64,000 nucleotides of DNA, taken from contig JAQUQR010000004.1 of NCBI GenBank assembly GCA_028715985.1, forward strand, positions 1-64,000, given 5' to 3'. The notes under the pieces were generated by a model that saw only the letters and a list, made by a program, of their open reading frames with translations, was not told where the DNA came from and did not search any database. Both the position numbers and the translations under genes were made by a program. The DNA comes from Methanocellales archaeon. Lineage in GTDB: Archaea > Halobacteriota > UBA148. This document shows, piece by piece, positions 17,753 to 32,046 of this stretch. Every line of letters begins with the position of its first letter. Positions within the stretch are counted from its first letter, which is position 1.

Positions 17753-19549
17753 TCATAAAGAACAATAGTAATCTCTTATTTTCTTAGCCATTAGCAATCT
17801 TCTTTCCGTTAAAAACTCATCGTAATTATCAACATCCATTGCAACAATAGTTTCAGGTATGCAATTCATCGTTAAATTTTCTTTAAGGGATTGGGAAGTA
17901 CCTATACCGCCATATTTTAGCTCGCCGCCATTGCACTGTTCTCTTAACGTATCAAAATATATCTTCGGTGCTTTATTGCCTATCTGGACATTTATCTCTG
18001 ATTGCATATAAACATAGTTAGCAATCTGGTTGTATTGCCATCTTTTCAATCCACTTTTCTTTAGGTAATCTCTGGGAAATACGTGATGTATGTCTCCCCT
18101 ATGAGAAATTAAATCTTTCACTGTTATGTCTTTTGATAAAAAGCCTTTATCATTTGATTTTACTTGTGCAGCTAAATAGACATTAAAGTTAGGACTACTT
18201 GACACAGAAGTATTGAGATTCTGTACTAAGGCGGCATCCCAAAAAGCATCAGATAAGTCAGCATTTTCAACGCTTTTAAGATGTTCTTCAAAGTCTTTAC
18301 TTGAAATGTTTTTTATATCAAAATCAAACATAGATTCTGGAGAACCAGAGTATCTACCAGTCAGAATTGACAAAACAAACCATTTACGCACATATGTTTC
18401 TATCTCGGCAGGATTATAGTTCTGGGATTTTAGTTTGAGATACAGCATATATGCAAAGTTTAGGGCGTTTTGTGAGCGGATAAGCTTAGGAGAAATGAAC
18501 CCTGCTGATTTAATTATCATTAAGAACCTCTTGAAATTGGTCTCATTAACGAAGTTTAGTATGCCTTTTTCAAGAGTGGCAAATGATTCCTTCGCTATTT
18601 CTTCTTCGTATGTCCTTGTCTCAAAATTCCTACCTGAGAGTAAACTAACCAAATCGGCTAATTTTCCTCTATTAAATTCGGATGTGAAAGCCACTCTCAA
18701 TAAATCGTTATAATCAGGGTCATATAGGTCTTCTTTTTCGTTTCGTAACCATGACATCTTTTGGAAGTAGTTTGTGGTGGTAAACTCCTTGTCTACTTCA
18801 GTAATATGGGAGTAGAATTCAGGAGCAACTGCCAAATGACAGAAGTAGTCAATAAACTTTCTAAGAGTTGGGCCACCGTAACTTTCATTCGCTGCAATTT
18901 TCGACATAGCAAAATCTGCTTGGCTCAACACAACCCCTTGTGAGTTAATTCGTATGAAAATTTCTGTTACAGTTTCGATATCCAAGTCAGAATCCAACTC
19001 GATTAATCCAAGTTGTTTTTGTGTTATTTTCCTTAGATATTCTATCTTGTCAAAAATGAATTTACGGTCAATATTCTCATTTTTGGAGCAATATGTTTCG
19101 ACTAAATTAAATACGTCCACATCTCCAGAAATTATTTTAGATATATCTGGCAGCCAGCTACTATCTCGCTCAATGGCTGTGTTAAGCACCTCAAATTTTT
19201 CTTTTAAAGGGTTAAAAGCTATTTTTATTTTCACTCTTTTATACTCTTTATCAATTACATGGTCTCCCAAAATCGCAGCAGTGAGTGCCGTTACACGTTG
19301 TTGTCCGTCAATAAGGATTTTCTTACCCTCTGCGGTAGTACCATCTTTTAGTTTTACATTTGGGTTACGCCAGGCAATTAAATAACCTATTGGATATCCC
19401 TGGTATAAAGAATCCATTAAATCTCTCACCTTTGTTGCATCCCAAACAAAAGGTCTTTGAATTTCGGGTATTGCTATCTCGCCTGCTTTTACCCACGAGA
19501 GAATCGTTTCTACCAAATGTTGATTGACTGAATACTTCTGCGTTTTCAT
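17753..19549 (-). CDS. DUF262/DUF1524-type nuclease (GmrSD-like)
   Basis: 598 residues. The N-terminal DUF262 (ParB/Srx-like) domain is shown by [28 protein letters not shown] and [11 protein letters not shown]. The C-terminal DUF1524 HNH-like nuclease part is shown by [14 protein letters not shown] and [14 protein letters not shown]. Fused proteins of this layout include the modification-dependent restriction enzyme GmrSD, which cuts DNA with glucosylated or otherwise modified bases, so an anti-virus role is plausible. No methylase is adjacent, as expected for this type. A tandem cttttaatcactt repeat lies just upstream (19551-19580). Confidence 0.82.
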
Positions 19550-22244: not shown

Positions 22245-22284
22245 AATACCATAAAATAAAACATGTGAAGGAGATGTGGATAAT

Positions 22285-23082
22285 ATGGATTGGGGTATGG
22301 AAAACAGGCTTTCAAGGCTAATTCAACCTGATGGTAGGGCTCTTTTTTTGCCCATAGATCACGGATATTTTCAAGGACCGACACGTAAATTAGAGGAGCC
22401 AGGCAAAACGGTTGAACCCCTGCTACCTTATGCAGATGCCATCATGCTTACAAGGGGAATACTGCGTACGTGTGTGGATCCCATGAACTCCAAACCGATT
22501 ATTCTCAGGGTATCCGGTGGCACGAGCATGGTCGGAGAGGACTTGGCTAATGAGGGAATTATCACTTCCGTGAGAGATGTCATCAGGCTCAATGCGAGCG
22601 CAGTGTCTCTTTCCATCTTCGTTGGCAGCAAATACGAGCATGAATCGCTGCTAAATCTTTCCAACCTGGTTAACGAGTGCGAGGAGTACGGCATTCCAGT
22701 GATGGCGGTCACAGCCGTGGGTAAAGAGCTGGAAAAGCGTGAGGCACGATATCTTGCTTTATGTTGCAGGATTGCTGCCGAGTTGGGCGCAAGGGTGGTA
22801 AAAACGTACTATTGTAAAGAAGGTTTTGAAAAGGTGGTCCATGGCTGCCCCGTACCGGTGGTTATCGCTGGTGGGCCTAAGGTGGAGTCCGAGCTGGAGG
22901 TCTTCGAGTTTATTCATGACGGCATCCAGAAAGGCGCCATAGGCGTAAATTTGGGAAGAAACGTATGGCAAAATGAACACCCGGTAGCAATGATCAGGGC
23001 TATTCGATCCATAATTCATGAAGATTGCACCCCGAAAGAGGCGCATGATTTGTTCAACAGCCTTAAGAAGGGCAAGCAGTAG
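22285..23082 (+). CDS. LsrF-like class I aldolase/thiolase (DhnA/FbaB family)
   Basis: 265 residues from ATG 22285; the site aaggag (22268-22273) is too close to GTG 22276 but fits the ATG. It is similar throughout to bacterial LsrF (3-hydroxy-5-phosphonooxypentane-2,4-dione thiolase): DWGMENRLSRL, LPIDHGYFQGPT, the Schiff-base strand VVKTYYCKEGFE with Lys and CPVPVVIAGG. Related archaeal enzymes include fructose-bisphosphate aldolase and the AroA'-type ADH synthase, so the substrate is uncertain. No Lsr transport genes accompany it, which argues against autoinducer-2 uptake. It is the last chromosomal gene before the cassette array. Confidence 0.82.
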   Translation: MDWGMENRLSRLIQPDGRALFLPIDHGYFQGPTRKLEEPGKTVEPLLPYADAIMLTRGILRTCVDPMNSKPIILRVSGGTSMVGEDLANEGIITSVRDVIRLNASAVSLSIFVGSKYEHESLLNLSNLVNECEEYGIPVMAVTAVGKELEKREARYLALCCRIAAELGARVVKTYYCKEGFEKVVHGCPVPVVIAGGPKVESELEVFEFIHDGIQKGAIGVNLGRNVWQNEHPVAMIRAIRSIIHEDCTPKEAHDLFNSLKKGKQ

Positions 23083-23166
23083 TTAATAATGCGCACGGAA
23101 CGACTGAAGGCCACGTGCCCGACCATAAATACTCCATCAAAGGTGTTTGGGTGAAGGAGTAATAAA

Positions 23167-23259
23167 ATGTTGTGGCGATACAGGCGAATAAAGCATGGCA
23201 GAGATAAAGACCTAAGCAAGATAAAGAGTCCTTTAGATAGTTTAGGTGTGAAGAGGTGA
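23167..23259 (+). CDS. Possible 30-residue basic peptide
   Basis: The frame MLWRYRRIKHGRDKDL... ends GVKR and has a good ribosome site (aaggag) before the ATG. It is rich in Arg and Lys and has no known family. It is too short to separate from chance with certainty. It lies between the LsrF-like gene and the left end of the cassette array. Confidence 0.3.
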   Translation: MLWRYRRIKHGRDKDLSKIKSPLDSLGVKR

Positions 23260-23278
23260 AAACGAAGAAATAGTTCAG

Positions 23279-23334
23279 ATATAACACCAAAATGGAATGA
23301 TATACGAACCAAGTTCTGATATAAGGAGTTATAC
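23279..23334 (+). other. Left boundary site of the cassette array (attI- or attC-like)
   Basis: The 56-base segment starts with ATATAAC (23279-23285) and ends with the core site GTTATAC (23328-23334), cut expected between G23328 and T23329. Its left 7-mer is the exact complement of the GTTATAT found at the right end of the array (26431-26437), as if the three cassettes had been inserted between G and TTATAT of one ancestral site. The interior pairs poorly, so it may be a degenerate attC, an attI or a secondary site. Confidence 0.6.
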
Positions 23335-23370
23335 GCAATGTTCTCATCAATATAAATGGAGGGTAATACA

Positions 23371-23778
23371 ATGTGGCATCTGGATGACGAAACTAAATAC
23401 GTGAAAGTGCACTCGTTTACTTTGCCTGAAGCATTTACCTATGCGGATACAAGAGAGGGCCAGACTGACAAGGATAAAAGAGAACGTATCCGAGCCAAAG
23501 CTGCTGAAGATTTTCCTAATAACATTCCTCCTGTTAAATGGTGGGCATTTCGTATCTCTGTCAAAAAATCGGGCAATAGGCCTTTCGATATTGAAAACGT
23601 TCCCAAGCTTATTGTAGATGCGTTCTGCGAATGGCAAATTCAGAAAGATGCGTCAGAGTATATAAAACTAGGTCTCTTTGAAGATGATACTATTGATTTC
23701 GTGAGGGTAATTGAAGTTGGTGGAATGCGGAGTCAAGAGGAGAACACCACCCAAGTGGAGATCTTCGGATGCAAGTAA
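23371..23778 (+). CDS. Cassette 1: RusA-like protein
   Basis: 135 residues from ATG 23371, which has an ideal ribosome site ggaggg (23358-23363) 7 bases upstream. The segment RPFDIENVPKLIVDAF (70-85) followed by GLFEDDTIDFVRVIEVG (101-117) matches the RusA layout: an Asp-x-x-Asn...Lys...Asp-Ala helix, then an acidic Asp-Asp pair that binds metal. RusA enzymes cut Holliday junctions and are usually phage-borne. Here the gene is alone in a cassette with its own ribosome site but no obvious promoter. The overall similarity is modest, so the function is a fold-level inference. Confidence 0.6.
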   Translation: MWHLDDETKYVKVHSFTLPEAFTYADTREGQTDKDKRERIRAKAAEDFPNNIPPVKWWAFRISVKKSGNRPFDIENVPKLIVDAFCEWQIQKDASEYIKLGLFEDDTIDFVRVIEVGGMRSQEENTTQVEIFGCK

Positions 23779-23790
23779 GAAGAACACAGC

Positions 23791-23882
23791 GTATAACACA
23801 GCATAAAAGGTTCGTGCCTTACGGCACTCACCCAAATCCTTCACTCATACTCAGGACTTCCTTTATGCTGAAACCGTTAGGC
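23791..23882 (+). repeat. attC-like site A (end of cassette 1)
   Basis: 92 bases. Outer cores are GTATAAC (23791-23797) and GTTAGGC (23876-23882). The inner arms CAGCATAAAAGG and CCTTTATGCTG pair along their length with one unpaired A, the extrahelical base typical of attC. The central part has hairpin GTGCC/GGCAC and the string ttcgtgccttacggcact, shared with site B. Confidence 0.85.
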
Positions 23883-23915
23883 GAAAGTATCTCCAATTAA
23901 TGGAAGGGAACTAAC

Positions 23916-24929
23916 ATGACCAATTTAAGGACGCTCAAATACCTGCTAAATTACAATGATTTGACAGATGATTGGAACCTTTCCTATGGTATCACAAAAA
24001 ACCGAAGCGATGCACTACTCACCAGTCCTAAACATTCCTTTTTTAATCCACTTTCAGAAACAGCGCTAACACTATTCTTACTTGGGAATATAGACGGATG
24101 GAAGCAAATTGGAACACTAAATATTTTCCCAAGAGATAAGGATTCTAAATGGAATAAAACTTTTTTTGATAATATTCGTTCATCCATAAATATTTTCAAT
24201 AATATCCCCTCAAGAGATAATTTATGGCTTTATAACAGAGAATTTAAAGAGAAAATTTTCGGGAGTGATGAAATAGACATCCACAGATCAATTCTTTTGT
24301 TTGAATTCGAAATGATGAATAGTGCCTTTCATCCCGTGCAACGTAAGGCATTTAAAGATCTTTCTTTCGTTGCTATTAGAAATATGAGAAAATGGTCTAA
24401 GTTTGATGCTGTGCTTATAGTACCCAACGAGAAATTATTTATTTTCTTTGAATCAAAATTAACCAGCGATATCTCTCAAAATACAAAGAAATATCCATAT
24501 ATCAATCAAATTATGCGAAATCTTGAATCTGCTTTTCTTTTAACTAATCATCGAAACAGTCTCTACAAAGATTGGAAATTTAGATATGTTTTCATATGTC
24601 CAAGAAAAATTGATCAATATAGGTTGACGCGTTATTCTTGGGTATTAAATTCTATTGAGAAAAGTATATCTATTTTTAGGGAAATTATAAACAATGAGTA
24701 TGAATCTTCAATCAATAAAGAATGCTACTCGGAATTTGAATTATTCGCAAGGCAAATTCCTAGCTGTATTATCAAAGTTTATTGGGATGATATCGGCAAC
24801 ATATTAGAAAGTAAAGACCGAAAATTTTTCAACAATTATCTTGACCGTTTAGAAGGTGCAGGTTTAGAAGAAGAAAAAATCGAAAACATAAAGGAAAGAT
24901 TTAGAAAGGTAGGAATGAACGTCAGTTAA
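23916..24929 (+). CDS. Cassette 2: PD-(D/E)XK-like nuclease family protein
   Basis: 337 residues, strongly AT-rich compared with flanking chromosomal genes. A nuclease-like core is visible: KFDAVLIVP with Asp164, then LFIFFESKLTSDIS with Glu179-x-Lys181, followed by a helix containing NQIMRNLESAF. This D...E-x-K spacing fits the PD-(D/E)XK fold found in restriction and repair nucleases. The N-terminal 140 residues are unassigned. As cargo of a mobile cassette, a defence role is plausible but not shown. The AT-rich composition suggests a source different from the host. Confidence 0.65.
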   Translation: MTNLRTLKYLLNYNDLTDDWNLSYGITKNRSDALLTSPKHSFFNPLSETALTLFLLGNIDGWKQIGTLNIFPRDKDSKWNKTFFDNIRSSINIFNNIPSRDNLWLYNREFKEKIFGSDEIDIHRSILLFEFEMMNSAFHPVQRKAFKDLSFVAIRNMRKWSKFDAVLIVPNEKLFIFFESKLTSDISQNTKKYPYINQIMRNLESAFLLTNHRNSLYKDWKFRYVFICPRKIDQYRLTRYSWVLNSIEKSISIFREIINNEYESSINKECYSEFELFARQIPSCIIKVYWDDIGNILESKDRKFFNNYLDRLEGAGLEEEKIENIKERFRKVGMNVS

Positions 24930-24960
24930 TATGCACCAATATAAAATAACGATACCTTCG

Positions 24961-25051
24961 CCTAACAGATCGTATCTGGCTTCGTGCTTTCGGCACTCCG
25001 CCCCAATTCCTCGCTACGCTCGGAACTTCAGATACGCTCAGCCGTTATCTG
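24961..25051 (+). repeat. attC-like site B (end of cassette 2)
   Basis: 91 bases. The left core GCCTAAC (24961-24967) is complementary to the core GTTAGGC that begins cassette 2; the right core is GTTATCT (25045-25051). Inner arms GATCGTATCTG and CAGATACGCTC pair with one mismatch. The centre (cttcgtgctttcggcactcc) closely resembles site A. Confidence 0.88.
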
Positions 25052-25138
25052 CAATTGCGGGCAAAATAAGGGAAGAATACGGAGGGTAACTGTACGCACA
25101 TAAGATGAGGGTCATAACTTGTTACAGGAGGCTGTTAT

Positions 25139-26278
25139 ATGCCTTGGGATGTTTTTATATGCTATGCGAGTGAGGACAAAGAATCTCTCGTACGACCGCT
25201 TGCTGACGAGCTACGTCGTAGAGGTCTATCGGTTTGGTATGATGAGCTTTCACTCACAGTCGGCGATAGTCTACGAAGATCGATAGATCGTGGTTTAGCG
25301 CAATCTCAATTTGGCATCGTTGTGCTTAGTACGCACTTTTTTAAGAAGGAATGGCCACAAAAAGAAGTGGATGGTTTAGTCACTCGTGAAACAGGTGGAG
25401 TCAAAGTTATACTACCAGTTTGGCACAATATTGGGAAGGAAGAGGTTGCCCGCTACTCACCCATGCTTGCTGATCGTGTTGCTGTATCCACTTCTAAAGG
25501 CTTGGAATATGTTGTTACTGAGCTGTTTCGGGCTATCCAACAAAGTAAGAAAGGGAAATCCGATACCCCCGAAGTGCAAAACTCAGCCCATCTAGAAGCT
25601 TCTTTCCACGTAGGAAATGAAGCCAATTTGATCGGAACCATAGAGGATATAGAAGCAACTGTAGATGAAGCCTTATATAGGATTGAACAAGGTTATGATC
25701 CACCATTTACAATAGAGATTGCTGCGGTAGACAATGTTAGTCGCGAGTTTGCTGAGATAAGTCAGAAAGTCTCCCCGTCACCTGAAGATCGGAGAGAAAG
25801 GATCCATCTAAAAAAAGAATTAGATCGGCTTCTTGATGCCAGAGATCGCGTTAAGCGCGGGGTATTATACATCCTTTGTGAACAGTCTCTGAAGCCTTAC
25901 ACATCTTCGAGTAGGAGAATCACTAGATGTATTATGGGATACTTTTGGTTGTTTTCTAGGGAGGCGCATACTCCTTTTAACCCTTGGAAGCTTGGCTTTA
26001 CAGGGTATGACCTATATCGATTCCGTTCACCCAAGTTGTCTACTACCATCTGGCTGAATCAAGAAGAGGATGCCTTGGTAAGCAAACTAGATCCAACAGG
26101 CATAACTTTTCAAATGGAAGCGCGATGGACTGTCCTTGAATTGCCAGACGATGTGTTACTATATAAAGCAATCCCGCAAATTGTCTGTGAGGTAATAAAA
26201 GCTAAGGATAGACAAATTGAAAATCCTCATGGAGACAATCTGTTGGATTTATCCAAATGGTATTTCGGGTTGCACTGA
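25139..26278 (+). CDS. Cassette 3: TIR-domain protein
   Basis: 379 residues, with ribosome site aggagg 7 bases before the ATG. The TIR domain spans about 1-135: DVFICYASEDKESLVRPLADEL, GLSVWYDELSLTVGDSLRRSID, FGIVVLSTHFFKKEWPQKEVDGL. The Glu in WPQKE (residue 76) is at the position of the catalytic Glu of NAD-cleaving TIR enzymes. A helical linker (200-245) leads to an unassigned C-terminal domain of about 130 residues that may sense or bind ligand. Prokaryotic TIR proteins commonly act in abortive anti-phage defence by depleting NAD. It is carried alone in its cassette. Confidence 0.85.
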   Translation: MPWDVFICYASEDKESLVRPLADELRRRGLSVWYDELSLTVGDSLRRSIDRGLAQSQFGIVVLSTHFFKKEWPQKEVDGLVTRETGGVKVILPVWHNIGKEEVARYSPMLADRVAVSTSKGLEYVVTELFRAIQQSKKGKSDTPEVQNSAHLEASFHVGNEANLIGTIEDIEATVDEALYRIEQGYDPPFTIEIAAVDNVSREFAEISQKVSPSPEDRRERIHLKKELDRLLDARDRVKRGVLYILCEQSLKPYTSSSRRITRCIMGYFWLFSREAHTPFNPWKLGFTGYDLYRFRSPKLSTTIWLNQEEDALVSKLDPTGITFQMEARWTVLELPDDVLLYKAIPQIVCEVIKAKDRQIENPHGDNLLDLSKWYFGLH

Positions 26279-26343
26279 CACGTGGGAGTGGAGTGATAGT
26301 CAAACTCTCAAATATCATTTTGAAAGGATATGCCCGCAACAGC

Positions 26344-26437
26344 AGATAACACAGCATATACGCTGCTGGCTTCGCCCTTGCCCTTCGGGACATTGCTCCC
26401 TTCGGTCGCAACATCGTATATGCTAGGAGCGTTATAT
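26344..26437 (+). repeat. attC-like site C (end of cassette 3)
   Basis: 94 bases. The left core AGATAAC (26344-26350) is complementary to GTTATCT that begins cassette 3; the right core is GTTATAT (26431-26437). Inner arms AGCATATACG and CGTATATGCT are perfect complements over 10 bases. No further cassette follows; the next 270 bases hold no gene. Confidence 0.88.
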
Positions 26438-26710
26438 ACAATCGGCTTCGGGACGCAAGAATTATAAATTAGTTTAATTTAAATAAATATACGGTGGGTG
26501 TAAAAATATAGGTTTTGGAACATAGGTAGATTTAAAAATGCCAGGTATATGAAGTCAATAATGCTGTTTTTCTTTTATTTTAATGATCCAACTTTTGTTT
26601 TAGCAGCAATCAAATAAAAAATAATTCTGTTGTATCTTTCTCTCTGGTTACGATACATTTAAATAAAAAACGATATTACCCCTCATTAAAAATAACGGGG
26701 GCAATTAGAT

Positions 26711-27274
26711 ATGAATTGGTTATTGACAATAGCAGTAATAATAGTGCTGATATTTGTCGGCATATTACTTTGGTTATGGAGCTTTTACAACAGAATGATT
26801 AGATCTGAGAATCGCATAGATAATGCATGGGCACAAATCGACGTACAACTTAAACGAAGAGCGGACCTCATCCCAAATCTGATGGAAACCGTCAAAGGCT
26901 ACATGAATCATGAGCGTGGAACCCTTGAGGCTGTTACAAAAGCGCGGGCTTCTATAATGAGTGCGAAGACGCCACAGGAAAGCATGGATGCAAACAATAT
27001 GTTAACCGGAGCATTGAAAACACTTTTTGCTGTTGCAGAAAGTTATCCTGATCTTAAAGCAAGTCAGAACTTCCTGAGTCTTCAAGACGAATTGACACAT
27101 ACCGAAGAGAAAATAGCCTATTCAAGACAACACTTCAACGATTCAGTATTAGTATTTAACAATACCATAGAGACGTTCCCCGGAGTGGTATTTGCTAAAA
27201 GAATGGGCAAAAAAGAAAAGCAGATGTTACAAATCCCGGAAGCATCCAGAGAAGTACCGAAAGTGGCATTCTAA
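26711..27274 (+). CDS. lemA: LemA family protein
   Basis: 187 residues. One N-terminal membrane helix (4-24) is followed by the LemA helical bundle: SENRIDNAWAQIDVQLKRRADLIPNL, MNHERGTLEAVTKARA, FNDSVLVFNNTIETFPGVVFA. LemA proteins are membrane-anchored with the bundle outside or in the periplasm-like space and are often encoded with HtpX-type proteases, as here. Role in envelope maintenance is inferred. The promoter region is AT-rich upstream of 26701. Confidence 0.93.
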   Translation: MNWLLTIAVIIVLIFVGILLWLWSFYNRMIRSENRIDNAWAQIDVQLKRRADLIPNLMETVKGYMNHERGTLEAVTKARASIMSAKTPQESMDANNMLTGALKTLFAVAESYPDLKASQNFLSLQDELTHTEEKIAYSRQHFNDSVLVFNNTIETFPGVVFAKRMGKKEKQMLQIPEASREVPKVAF

Positions 27275-27291
27275 ATTTTTTCTTTGATACC

Positions 27292-28197
27292 ATGGAAAAA
27301 CAAATGCTGTTAGAGGACCACATAAGGAAAAACAAGCGGGACACTGTACTTATCTGTATGTTCATGGTCCTTCTTCTTTTTAGCGTGATATTTGCCATAG
27401 GTTTGGCACTAGGCTCCCCTCCTTATTTTACCATAGCAATCGCTTTACCCATAGCCTTGTTTTACATTATGATCACCTATTCTTTTTCCGTTCAGACTGT
27501 CATTTCTGCTGCCGGTGCTAGACCCGCAAATCCACAAGTTCGTGAAGAGAAACTGCTGATTTATAAAGCTGAAGAAATGGCTATCGCTGCGGGTTTGCCG
27601 CCGCCTAAGGTTTATGTTCAGGATTCAAAGGACATCAATGCCTTTGCGACAGGTAAGAAGCCGGAAGAATCCATTATCTGTGCTACTACCGGTGCTATTC
27701 GGCAATTGAACAATGAGGAGCTTGAAGGCGTTATTGGTCATGAGATGAGCCATATAAAGAATCGGGATATTCTTGTGATGACTGTTACCGTGGCAGTGGT
27801 TGGAACCATTGCTATTCTCGCCGAAATAGCCTTGAGGTCTCTATTCTGGAGCGGTGGTGGACGAGGAAGCAAAAAAGGCAGCGGTGGAATAGTCCTCATT
27901 ATAGCCGCTGTTATTTTCATTGTTTTAGCGCCGCTGTTCTCGAGGCTCACTTATCTTGCCATTTCGCGGAGAAGAGAATACCTTGCTGATGCAGATGGGG
28001 CATATCTTACCCGTAATCCCGAGGGTCTTGCGGCGGCTTTGGAGAAAATAAAGAATGATTTGCCTGATGATCCAAAAGGCTCTAAAACGGTTGCTCCGCT
28101 TTACATTGCAAATCCATTTAAGAGGGCTTTACGTAACTCAATTTGGTCAACCCATCCACCCTTGGATGAAAGAATAAGAAGATTAAGATCGATGTAA
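27292..28197 (+). CDS. htpX: HtpX-like membrane zinc metalloprotease (M48)
   Basis: 301 residues, length typical of HtpX. Two N-terminal helices (18-65), the zinc motif HEMSH (150-154), two more helices with a glycine/serine-rich loop between them, and the downstream RREYLADADGAYLT segment that supplies the third zinc ligand (Glu). HtpX degrades misfolded membrane proteins, with the active site in the cytosol. It starts 17 bases after lemA, forming the common lemA-htpX pair. Confidence 0.93.
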   Translation: MEKQMLLEDHIRKNKRDTVLICMFMVLLLFSVIFAIGLALGSPPYFTIAIALPIALFYIMITYSFSVQTVISAAGARPANPQVREEKLLIYKAEEMAIAAGLPPPKVYVQDSKDINAFATGKKPEESIICATTGAIRQLNNEELEGVIGHEMSHIKNRDILVMTVTVAVVGTIAILAEIALRSLFWSGGGRGSKKGSGGIVLIIAAVIFIVLAPLFSRLTYLAISRRREYLADADGAYLTRNPEGLAAALEKIKNDLPDDPKGSKTVAPLYIANPFKRALRNSIWSTHPPLDERIRRLRSM

Positions 28198-29573: not shown

Positions 29574-29831
29574 GTACCAGTAATTAAGGGTTAAGTGGGT
29601 TGTAAGATCGTCTTTCTTAATAAAATGCTTGAAATTTGAAGGTTGTTATTTATTTTATTGATTGCGACTAGAAGACTAACATAGCATATTAACATCACAT
29701 CAGCTAGCAGCGTAGCCTTTAGCGCTCTGCCGAAAACCCTCCACGAACTTCTGTTTTTATCCGCAAGATTTTGTGCGCCATCTTGTAAAGCGCCGAAAAA
29801 TCCTTTAATCCAGAAACCATTAAAGCTGTTG

Positions 29832-30845
29832 ATGCGCATCGCAATGTATTATAGTAACGATGATGTTCGCTTAGAGGAGATGCCTATCCCACAAATCGGC
29901 TCCAGCGAGATATTGGTAAAGGTGATTGCAAGTGGCATATGTGGCAGTGACGTAATGGAATGGTACCGCATTAGAAAAGCCCCTCTGGTGCTCGGTCATG
30001 AGATTACGGGGGAGATCGTTGAGATGGGAAAGGATGTAAAAAAATACAAAAAAGGTGATAGGGTCTTCGTTTCTCATCATGTTCCTTGCAACACATGTCG
30101 TTATTGTCTCAGCGACCATCAAACTGCTTGTGAAACTCTGCACCAGACGAACTATGATCCCGGTGGTTTTGCAGAGTTTATCCGGGTGCCGCAAATAAAT
30201 GTTGACAGGGGTGTATTTTTGCTTCCTGAAGGGATGTCCTTTGATGAAGGGACTTTCATCGAGCCGTTGGCTTGTGTTGCGCGAGGATTGAGACTGGCAA
30301 ATATGAAAGCAGGATTGAGCGTGTTGGTCATGGGCAGCGGTGTTTCTGGATTGCTGCACATACAGTTGGCTAAAGCACTTGGTGCAGCTCGAGTCATCGC
30401 TACGGATGTGATTGACTATCGTCTCAGGGCGGCAAAAAAATTCGGAGCAGATGCGACCCTACACGCCAAGGAAAATGTGCCGGTTGAAGTGCGTAAGATG
30501 AATGAAGGAAGGCCGGTAGATCGTGTTATAATATGCACCGGGGCACTTCCAGCTGCTTTGCAGGCAATTCGGTCAGTAGACAAGGGCGGCACTGTATTGT
30601 TTTTTGCAGTGCCTGGTGTTGACGTCCCCATTCCCATGAACGAGCTTTGGCGCGATGAAATAACCCTGATGACATCCTATGGCGCAGGACCTAAAGACCT
30701 TCAAACAGCTCTCGAATTGATAGGCTCCGTCAATGTTAAGGATATGATAACGCATAAATTCGGCTTGAAAGACACATCGAAGGGCTTTAAGCTTGTGGCA
30801 GAGGCTAAGGAATCCCTTAAGGTGATTATTGAGCCCCAGAGATAA
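29832..30845 (+). CDS. Zinc-dependent medium-chain alcohol/polyol dehydrogenase
   Basis: About 337 residues from ATG 29832. GICGSDVMEW holds the catalytic zinc Cys, GHEITGEI the catalytic His-Glu, and CNTCRYCLSDHQTAC the four structural-zinc cysteines. The NAD(P) loop VMGSGVSGLLHIQLAKALGA follows. Resembles sorbitol/threonine dehydrogenases that oxidise a secondary alcohol next to a sugar carbon. The stop abuts the start of a class II aldolase gene, and deoC follows, so the three probably act on one sugar or sugar phosphate. The substrate is not known. Confidence 0.9.
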   Translation: MRIAMYYSNDDVRLEEMPIPQIGSSEILVKVIASGICGSDVMEWYRIRKAPLVLGHEITGEIVEMGKDVKKYKKGDRVFVSHHVPCNTCRYCLSDHQTACETLHQTNYDPGGFAEFIRVPQINVDRGVFLLPEGMSFDEGTFIEPLACVARGLRLANMKAGLSVLVMGSGVSGLLHIQLAKALGAARVIATDVIDYRLRAAKKFGADATLHAKENVPVEVRKMNEGRPVDRVIICTGALPAALQAIRSVDKGGTVLFFAVPGVDVPIPMNELWRDEITLMTSYGAGPKDLQTALELIGSVNVKDMITHKFGLKDTSKGFKLVAEAKESLKVIIEPQR

Positions 30846-31394
30846 ATGTTAAAAGAGATGGTGAAGTTCGGAAAGAAGCTTGCAGAAGACGGTTTAGTGA
30901 GATCTCACTTTGGCAACATCAGTGTTAGGATCGACAACAAGATGCTCATAACCAAAAGAGGTGCAATGCTGGATGGGCTCTCTAAGAACAGTGTTGTCGA
31001 GGTCGATCTTGAAGAATCAAAAAGTAGGGTAGCTTCGATGGAAGCGAAGGTTCACAGGGAGATATACAGAGGAACATCCGCACTTGCCGTAATCCATGCA
31101 CATCCCGTATATGCGGTGGTCGAGTCGTTGATTTTGAGCCAAGATAAGATAATACCCGTGGACTGTGAAGGTTTGTACCACCTCCGTGAGATACCTATAG
31201 TCGAGGGCAAGGCAGGTTCAAAAAAACTTGCCGATAACGTATCCAGTGTGCTTCGGGATTACAAGGGCGTTATAGTAAGGGGGCATGGCACTTTCACAGC
31301 AGGGAAATCCTTAGAAGAAGCATACGTTCTAACATCCATGATCGAGCACAGCTGTAAGGTAAAATATCTTCTTTCAATGGCGACTCAATGGTGA
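30846..31394 (+). CDS. Class II aldolase/epimerase (FucA/AraD family)
   Basis: 182 residues. The zinc-binding HAHP motif ([12 protein letters not shown]), the downstream [15 protein letters not shown] and the N-terminal SHFGNISVR are diagnostic. Such enzymes split fuculose-1-phosphate into dihydroxyacetone phosphate and lactaldehyde, or act on related sugar phosphates; one archaeal member supplies lactaldehyde for coenzyme F420 synthesis. No gap to the dehydrogenase gene upstream; four bases to deoC downstream. Confidence 0.9.
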
Positions 31395-31398
31395 TGAG

Positions 31399-32046
31399 AT
31401 GAAGATCACGAGAGAGCAGCTGGCAAGTATGATCGACCACACCCTTCTAAAGCCAGATGCGACCGCTAAGGACATAAAGAGAATTTGCGCTGAGGCCATC
31501 GAGCACAATTTTGCATCTGTTTGTGTCAATCCCATTCATGTCTCCTTGGCTGCGAAAATGCTGGAGAGGATGAACATCAAGGTGTGCACCGTCATAGGGT
31601 TTCCGCTTGGGGCGAGTACCACTGAGACCAAGGTATTCGAAGTGAAAAACGCTATCAAAAACGGAGCGCAAGAGGTGGACGTGGTGATGAACATCGGCGC
31701 ATTGAAATCCGGCGATTATGAGGTAGTTAAAAAGGATATAAGGGCAGTCGTGAACTCTGCCGGAGGCTCTGTCGTCAAAGTGATCATCGAGGCAGGGCTT
31801 TTGACAGATGAGGAGAAGGTGCATGCATGTAAGCTTGCAAAAGAGGCAGGTGCAGATTTCGTGAAAACTTCCACTGGTTTTTCTGGCAAAGCGACCGTCA
31901 GCGATGTCAAGCTAATGCGAGATGCATTCGGAAAGGGTGTTAAGGCATCTGGTGGAATCCGCACATACGAGGATGCCATTGCTCTTGTCAAAGCCGGTGC
32001 TACACGAATAGGCACGAGTGATGCACTTTCGATTGTCAAGGGTTAG
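31399..32046 (+). CDS. deoC: Deoxyribose-phosphate aldolase
   Basis: 215 residues, usual length. [14 protein letters not shown] at the start, the conserved SVCVNP segment, [14 protein letters not shown], and the Schiff-base strand [22 protein letters not shown] with its catalytic Lys. It splits deoxyribose-5-phosphate into glyceraldehyde-3-phosphate and acetaldehyde. Third gene of a probable operon with the dehydrogenase and class II aldolase. The TAG stop is followed directly by the ATG of a cysteine-rich frame. Confidence 0.95.

Follow-up and report, generated by a model that had tools for sequence, protein, structure and literature searches.

A TIR-protein gene carried as an integron cassette in a Methanocellales archaeon, and a clade of archaeal recombinases beside related cassette arrays

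Positions 25045-26431 of the window (the whole stretch of 64,000 nucleotides analysed, from a Methanocellales archaeon) are a true integron cassette residing in an archaeon, and the gene in this cassette encodes a TIR-domain protein. The preferred reading, to which we assign a probability of roughly 0.78, is a stand-alone TIR effector cassette of a native archaeal integron platform, the integrase of which was lost here and is represented in related archaea by a clade of recombinases that do not contain the patch III insertion of IntI. The elements of the locus are as follows.

22276-23082, plus strand: left flank, DeoC/LacD-family aldolase gene (Pfam DeoC, 98.5 bits)
23195-23273, plus strand: integrase gene remnant, in which the start codon and the bases just after it adjoin the final codons, the middle being gone
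23274-23328, plus strand: attI-like site with repeated GATATA/GATATACG half-sites and the insertion point at 23328|23329; the same architecture is present behind the clade integrases
23329-23876, plus strand: cassette 1, from the attI side to attC1, with matching ends GTTATACGC / GCGTATAAC
23356-23778: cassette 1 ORF, 140 amino acids, RusA-like by eye only
23788-23886: attC1
23877-25044, plus strand: cassette 2, with matching ends GTTAGGCGA / TCGCCTAAC
23916-24929: cassette 2 ORF, 337 amino acids, without a family match and with a PD-(D/E)XK-like motif by eye only
24959-25054: attC2
25045-26431, plus strand: cassette 3 with the TIR gene, with matching ends (a 9-mer) GTTATCTGC / GCAGATAAC
25139-26278, plus strand: TIR protein ORF, 379 amino acids, GGAGG upstream; TIR domain at residues 2-133, predicted catalytic E76 with W72 near it
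25556-26275, plus strand: C-terminal region of the TIR protein, residues 140-379 (about 240), for which no family assignment was found
26341-26441, minus strand (folded bottom strand): attC3 of the TIR cassette
26711-28197, plus strand: right flank, with lemA and an htpX-like gene for an M48 peptidase; conserved among sister species

The three attC sites were first spotted by eye, and the limits of cassette 3 were set by the G|TT rule, which places its start at 25045, one base away from the 25046 proposed in the earlier note. In a cassette, the bases that follow G|TT and those of the R'' core in the attC it carries both derive from the single attC of the circular form; the two ends must therefore match, and they do so in all three window cassettes. 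In ten arrays taken together, 19 same-cassette pairs agreed at 87% of variable positions and 881 other pairs at 58%; none of 5000 random draws attained the value of the same-cassette pairs. The bottom strands of attC1 (z -3.3) and attC3 (z -3.6) fold better than all 200 shuffles, the fold of attC2 being weaker (z -2.0), and among 33 attC sites the stem showed two-sided changes in 103 cells, where shuffles gave 37, in an alignment that was itself fitted to the structure. The covariance model was built from the three window attCs and one site of the sister species G003, so that recovering these four is no proof; the attC model R2 misses the class 1 attC sites of R751 and is thus specific to the archaeal attC type found here. 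A fourth attC at 23268-23340 was considered and rejected, as its fold is poor (z -0.5) and it resembles the attI-like sites of relatives. With three attCs within 2.7 kb (at least two, less than 4 kb apart, define a CALIN), with cassette ends that match and sit at G|TTRRRY, and with no integrase gene found in the genome, the array in its present state is a CALIN.

The flanks of the array are shared by the sister species G003, where the cassette between them is another one, composed of a DUF3800 ORF and an attC, and homology with the window restarts at base 26430, one base off the cleavage point 26431|26432. These different cassettes point to cassette recombination at the window site, and the exchange boundary, together with the matching ends, bears out the claim that the TIR gene forms the third, attC-bounded cassette. 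In another sister species, G002, the site is devoid of cassettes; there, the aldolase gene beside the platform (L027 2928-3719) is mostly a strongly diverged version. Bacterial contamination or a chimeric contig could be suspected because the genome is a draft of 19 contigs and this type of TIR domain is mainly bacterial, but the chance of it is close to negligible: the contig is 142 kb long, genes for FEN1, TFIIB, S3ae, Dph5 and Dph6 of archaeal type lie in the window itself and each score above a curated cut-off, and the flanks are syntenic in the sister species and in G006, a genome of another family of the same order. Outside the array, 3.8 kb upstream of the aldolase gene, a GmrSD-type (DUF262) protein of 598 amino acids (17753-19549, minus strand) is a likely defence gene.

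The comparison with G006 reveals what the window platform probably contained. The same aldolase gene, which in G003 precedes a cassette, is followed in G006 by a tyrosine recombinase and then by a cassette array containing three attCs; downstream of this array come ADH, class II aldolase and DeoC genes, which the window has at 29829-32046. Window positions 23083-23273 match the G006 recombinase region to just past the start codon and then jump to the last codons, with local alignment scores of 131 on the start side and 112 on the end side (shuffle maxima, 34 and 33, respectively). The deletion junction lies inside an imperfect repeat, CATGgCAGagATAAAGA / CATGtCAGtaATAAAGA, found at both ends of the gene, which would explain an internal deletion. 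A second decayed platform is present on contig C5 of the same genome (L067 4909-5090), where an integrase C-terminus (52% identity over residues 299-342, with one stop) is followed by the attI-like ATATAAGTTCGGATATACTAAGTTACACGCAAT and then by cassettes with attC; the two remnants indicate that the genome formerly possessed two or more platforms, of which only the cassettes were kept.

A search with the G033 protein, an intact recombinase of 351 amino acids, found relatives with about 50-78% identity to it in several families of the phylum. The recombinase, an attI-like site and attC arrays co-occur in G006 at the locus that corresponds to the one in the window, and elsewhere in the genomes G033, G005, G034, G183, G198, G169, G272 and G311. 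Behind most clade members lie repeated GTATATACG / CGGATATA half-sites followed by GTTRNRCG, after which the sequences diverge; 46 half-sites were counted in 19 loci where 3.8 were expected, whereas nine more distant recombinases taken as controls had two (1.7 expected). An attC is present within about 1.5 kb of nine clade loci, many of the others stopping at a contig edge. At E<=1e-6, attCs were detected in 68 of 288 genomes; they occur in 23 of 27 clade-bearing genomes against 0 of 45 with a distant Xer-type match only, although these genomes are related and the counts therefore not independent, and the two genome samples overlap only approximately. The G006 and G005 integrase copies are frameshifted, and only that of G033 and a few at contig edges look intact.

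The clade proteins have the core of a tyrosine recombinase, with 150 bits to Pfam Phage_integrase and core motifs that align with IntI1, and among solved structures they are similarly close to VchIntIA (2a3v, 160 bits) and to Pyrococcus XerA (4a8e, 155 bits). They exceed the cut-off of the NCBIfam model recomb_XerA_Arch (NF040815; 253 bits, cut-off 220) and fall below that of the integron integrase model TIGR02249 (237 bits, cut-off 265), the match to which skips the insertion positions. Unlike in IntI, the specific insertion around patch III (31 residues in IntI1) is absent from all eight clade members aligned; the clade nevertheless resembles IntI in adjoining an attI-like site and a cassette array, a position in which, to our knowledge, chromosomal XerA does not occur. 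Searches relying on the IntI domain would miss such a recombinase. Relatives are also found on bacterial plasmids (L107 1543-2208 and L106 2959-4002, with 52% and 42% identity), and an Acinetobacter relative directly precedes tet(X3).

The array could alternatively be an ordinary archaeal CALIN like those already published, filled by a canonical IntI that worked in trans or came in from bacteria, with the XerA-like neighbour unrelated to attC. The model scores of the clade agree with this, PMC9668308 regards patch III as a requirement of integron recombination, and the window genome was found to have no integrase of its own; but canonical IntI did not exceed the cut-off in any of the 41 related genomes searched, nor in the window genome, the association of recombinase, attI-like site and attC arrays recurs at unrelated loci, and in the window the integrase remnant stands directly before attI. 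The ordinary CALIN is thus an unlikely explanation, and a native platform with its own integrase accounts for the locus better. Full-length clade members carry an extra N-terminal domain of about 65 residues; among five members examined, four gave HARP matches that stayed below the threshold (14.9-18.2 bits against a cut-off of 25). HARP domains in SMARCAL1-type proteins act on forked DNA, and a role for the HARP-like domain in reading attC hairpins is offered as a lead only. The broader proposal, that this archaeal lineage runs complete integrons whose integrase arose or works without patch III of IntI, reads attC hairpins otherwise, perhaps via this domain, and lets these archaea swap immune genes with their own machinery, has in our estimation an even chance of being correct.

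As for the cargo, the TIR domain is recognized by Pfam TIR_2 in a profile search (76 bits, E 3.8e-21), and its closest solved structure among PDB sequences is PdTIR (3h16, E 1.8e-44), further relatives being AbTIR (7uwg, E 2.1e-42; 8g83, E 4.5e-42) and TcpB (4lqc). It can be aligned end to end, free of large gaps, with PdTIR and with the NAD hydrolase AbTIR, and W72 and E76 in KKEWPQKEVDGL fall on PdTIR KKEWPQKELDGL and AbTIR KKDWTNYELDGL. A glutamate is the catalytic residue of NAD-cleaving TIR domains; the one anticipated in the earlier note can be identified as E76, within the motif EWPQKEVDGL shared with PdTIR and AbTIR. The TIR fold and the catalytic Glu are thus both present at the sequence level, and the high similarity to the PdTIR/AbTIR/TcpB group of bacterial TIR NADases, with Glu and Trp kept in both, supports membership of this NADase-type bacterial group. 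NAD hydrolysis by the protein is likely on these grounds, and it is probably an NAD-destroying antiviral enzyme. The domain order differs from that of its relatives: the cassette protein has an N-terminal TIR followed by the C-terminal part, whereas PdTIR (L011) and the G035 protein (L018) have a C-terminal TIR. The PdTIR gene of Paracoccus denitrificans (L011 7509-10507) adjoins a 478-amino-acid ORF that is nucleotidyltransferase-like by eye. In PADLOC, the TIR part of the cassette protein is matched by PDC-S66 and by ThsB models (ThsB, 133 bits); the latter cover the TIR domain alone, and neither of the other cassette ORFs has a PADLOC match that would mark it as an adjacent ThsA effector gene, and hence the gene is not assigned to Thoeris.

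The C-terminal domain had been described as unassigned and 130 residues long; the former holds, but the region spans about 240 residues. The profile search proposed for it recovered no family: no convincing match to residues ~140-379 was obtained in Pfam, NCBIfam, PADLOC or PDB sequences, or by tblastn in plasmids, phages, viral contigs and 294 genomes of the phylum, and four genome matches, at 27-38% identity and with E values from 4e-4 to 8e-3, we attribute to chance. AlphaFold2 on the single TIR protein sequence gave a mean pLDDT of 43.7, unusable as a model. A sensor function may be guessed for this region from the analogy of other TIR effectors that consist of one gene.

The TIR cassette has parallels in other arrays. 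A second TIR cassette (L105 275-1129, in G311 of another archaeal family, f8) encodes 284 amino acids with a different C-terminal part; an attC bounds it precisely on either side, and its ends match. A third TIR protein (L100, 52% identical) is flanked by two attC-like sites but is in inverted orientation. The arrays of G004, a genome of the same archaeal family as the window, contain genes for a stand-alone NucC-like nuclease (L062 9112-9876, minus strand; 116 bits to the NucC effector model) and a stand-alone GmrSD/HEC-05-type protein (L063 662-2362, minus strand), and other arrays carry acetate-CoA ligase, methyltransferase and SBF transporter genes, so that defence genes are part of the array cargo and not the whole of it. 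The TIR, NucC-like, GmrSD-type and DUF3800 cassettes of related archaea give good support in kind to the suggestion that integron recombination moves immune effectors about; their antiviral activity we infer. The TIR protein might instead be inactive, a toxin stabilizing the array, or a signalling protein with no part in defence, in agreement with this mixed cargo, which includes metabolic genes, with the absence of a partner gene and of a recognizable sensor, and with the lack of any PADLOC match for the other two window cassette ORFs. We regard this as rather improbable, since the ORF and its catalytic motif are intact, the two PADLOC models match the TIR part, and further defence-type cassettes are present in related arrays.

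Under the preferred reading of a TIR effector cassette in a native platform, the platform would have consisted of the aldolase gene, the integrase, attI and the cassettes, all in a single direction, as may still be the case in relatives with intact platforms, whose archaeal-clade integrase, XerA/IntI-like by score, would operate without the patch III insertion. The cassette would have entered at attI (23328|23329) or at a neighbouring attC, through a tyrosine recombinase acting on the folded bottom strand of attC. The integrase would then have been deleted in the window genome, leaving the array as a CALIN whose mobility now depends on an enzyme that works in trans or is supplied by another cell. 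Upon infection, the C-terminal region would most likely sense a cue or drive assembly, the TIR domain would then cleave NAD+ via E76 (an enzyme class assigned by homology), and virus growth would be stopped by NAD depletion or by a cyclic ADP-ribose signal.

If a recombinase lacking patch III does run archaeal integrons, integron finders mislabel complete integrons as integrase-less arrays, and such mislabelling may account for part of the CALIN excess in archaea. Integron function would then have been gained by a second structural route, the reading of folded single-stranded DNA without the added domain of IntI would become testable, and these archaea would swap TIR and other immune genes among themselves using their own machinery.

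Archaeal integrons and bacterial defence cassettes are already known, whereas TIR cassettes in archaea and an integron integrase without patch III appear new within the literature searched. In Ghaly et al. (2022; PMC9668308), integrons found with IntegronFinder are described in 75 archaeal MAGs, mostly as CALINs, and restriction and methylation genes are listed among the cassettes; TIR is not mentioned in the main text. Those elements are likewise same-direction attC arrays mostly devoid of intI, but the six archaeal IntIs reported all carry the IntI-specific domain, which is treated as defining, whereas the platform integrase described here is without it and the cargo includes TIR proteins. 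In bacteria, integrons were shown to act as phage-defence libraries (Darracq 2025, Kieffer 2025 and Getz 2025, as cited in PMC12409362), and these also carry small single-gene defence systems as cassettes; their hosts are bacterial and their integrase is a canonical IntI, whereas the present array is archaeal and its defence role is predicted from the genes. The TIR, NucC-like and GmrSD-type cargo suggests that archaea, as bacteria, hold immune genes in exchangeable cassettes.
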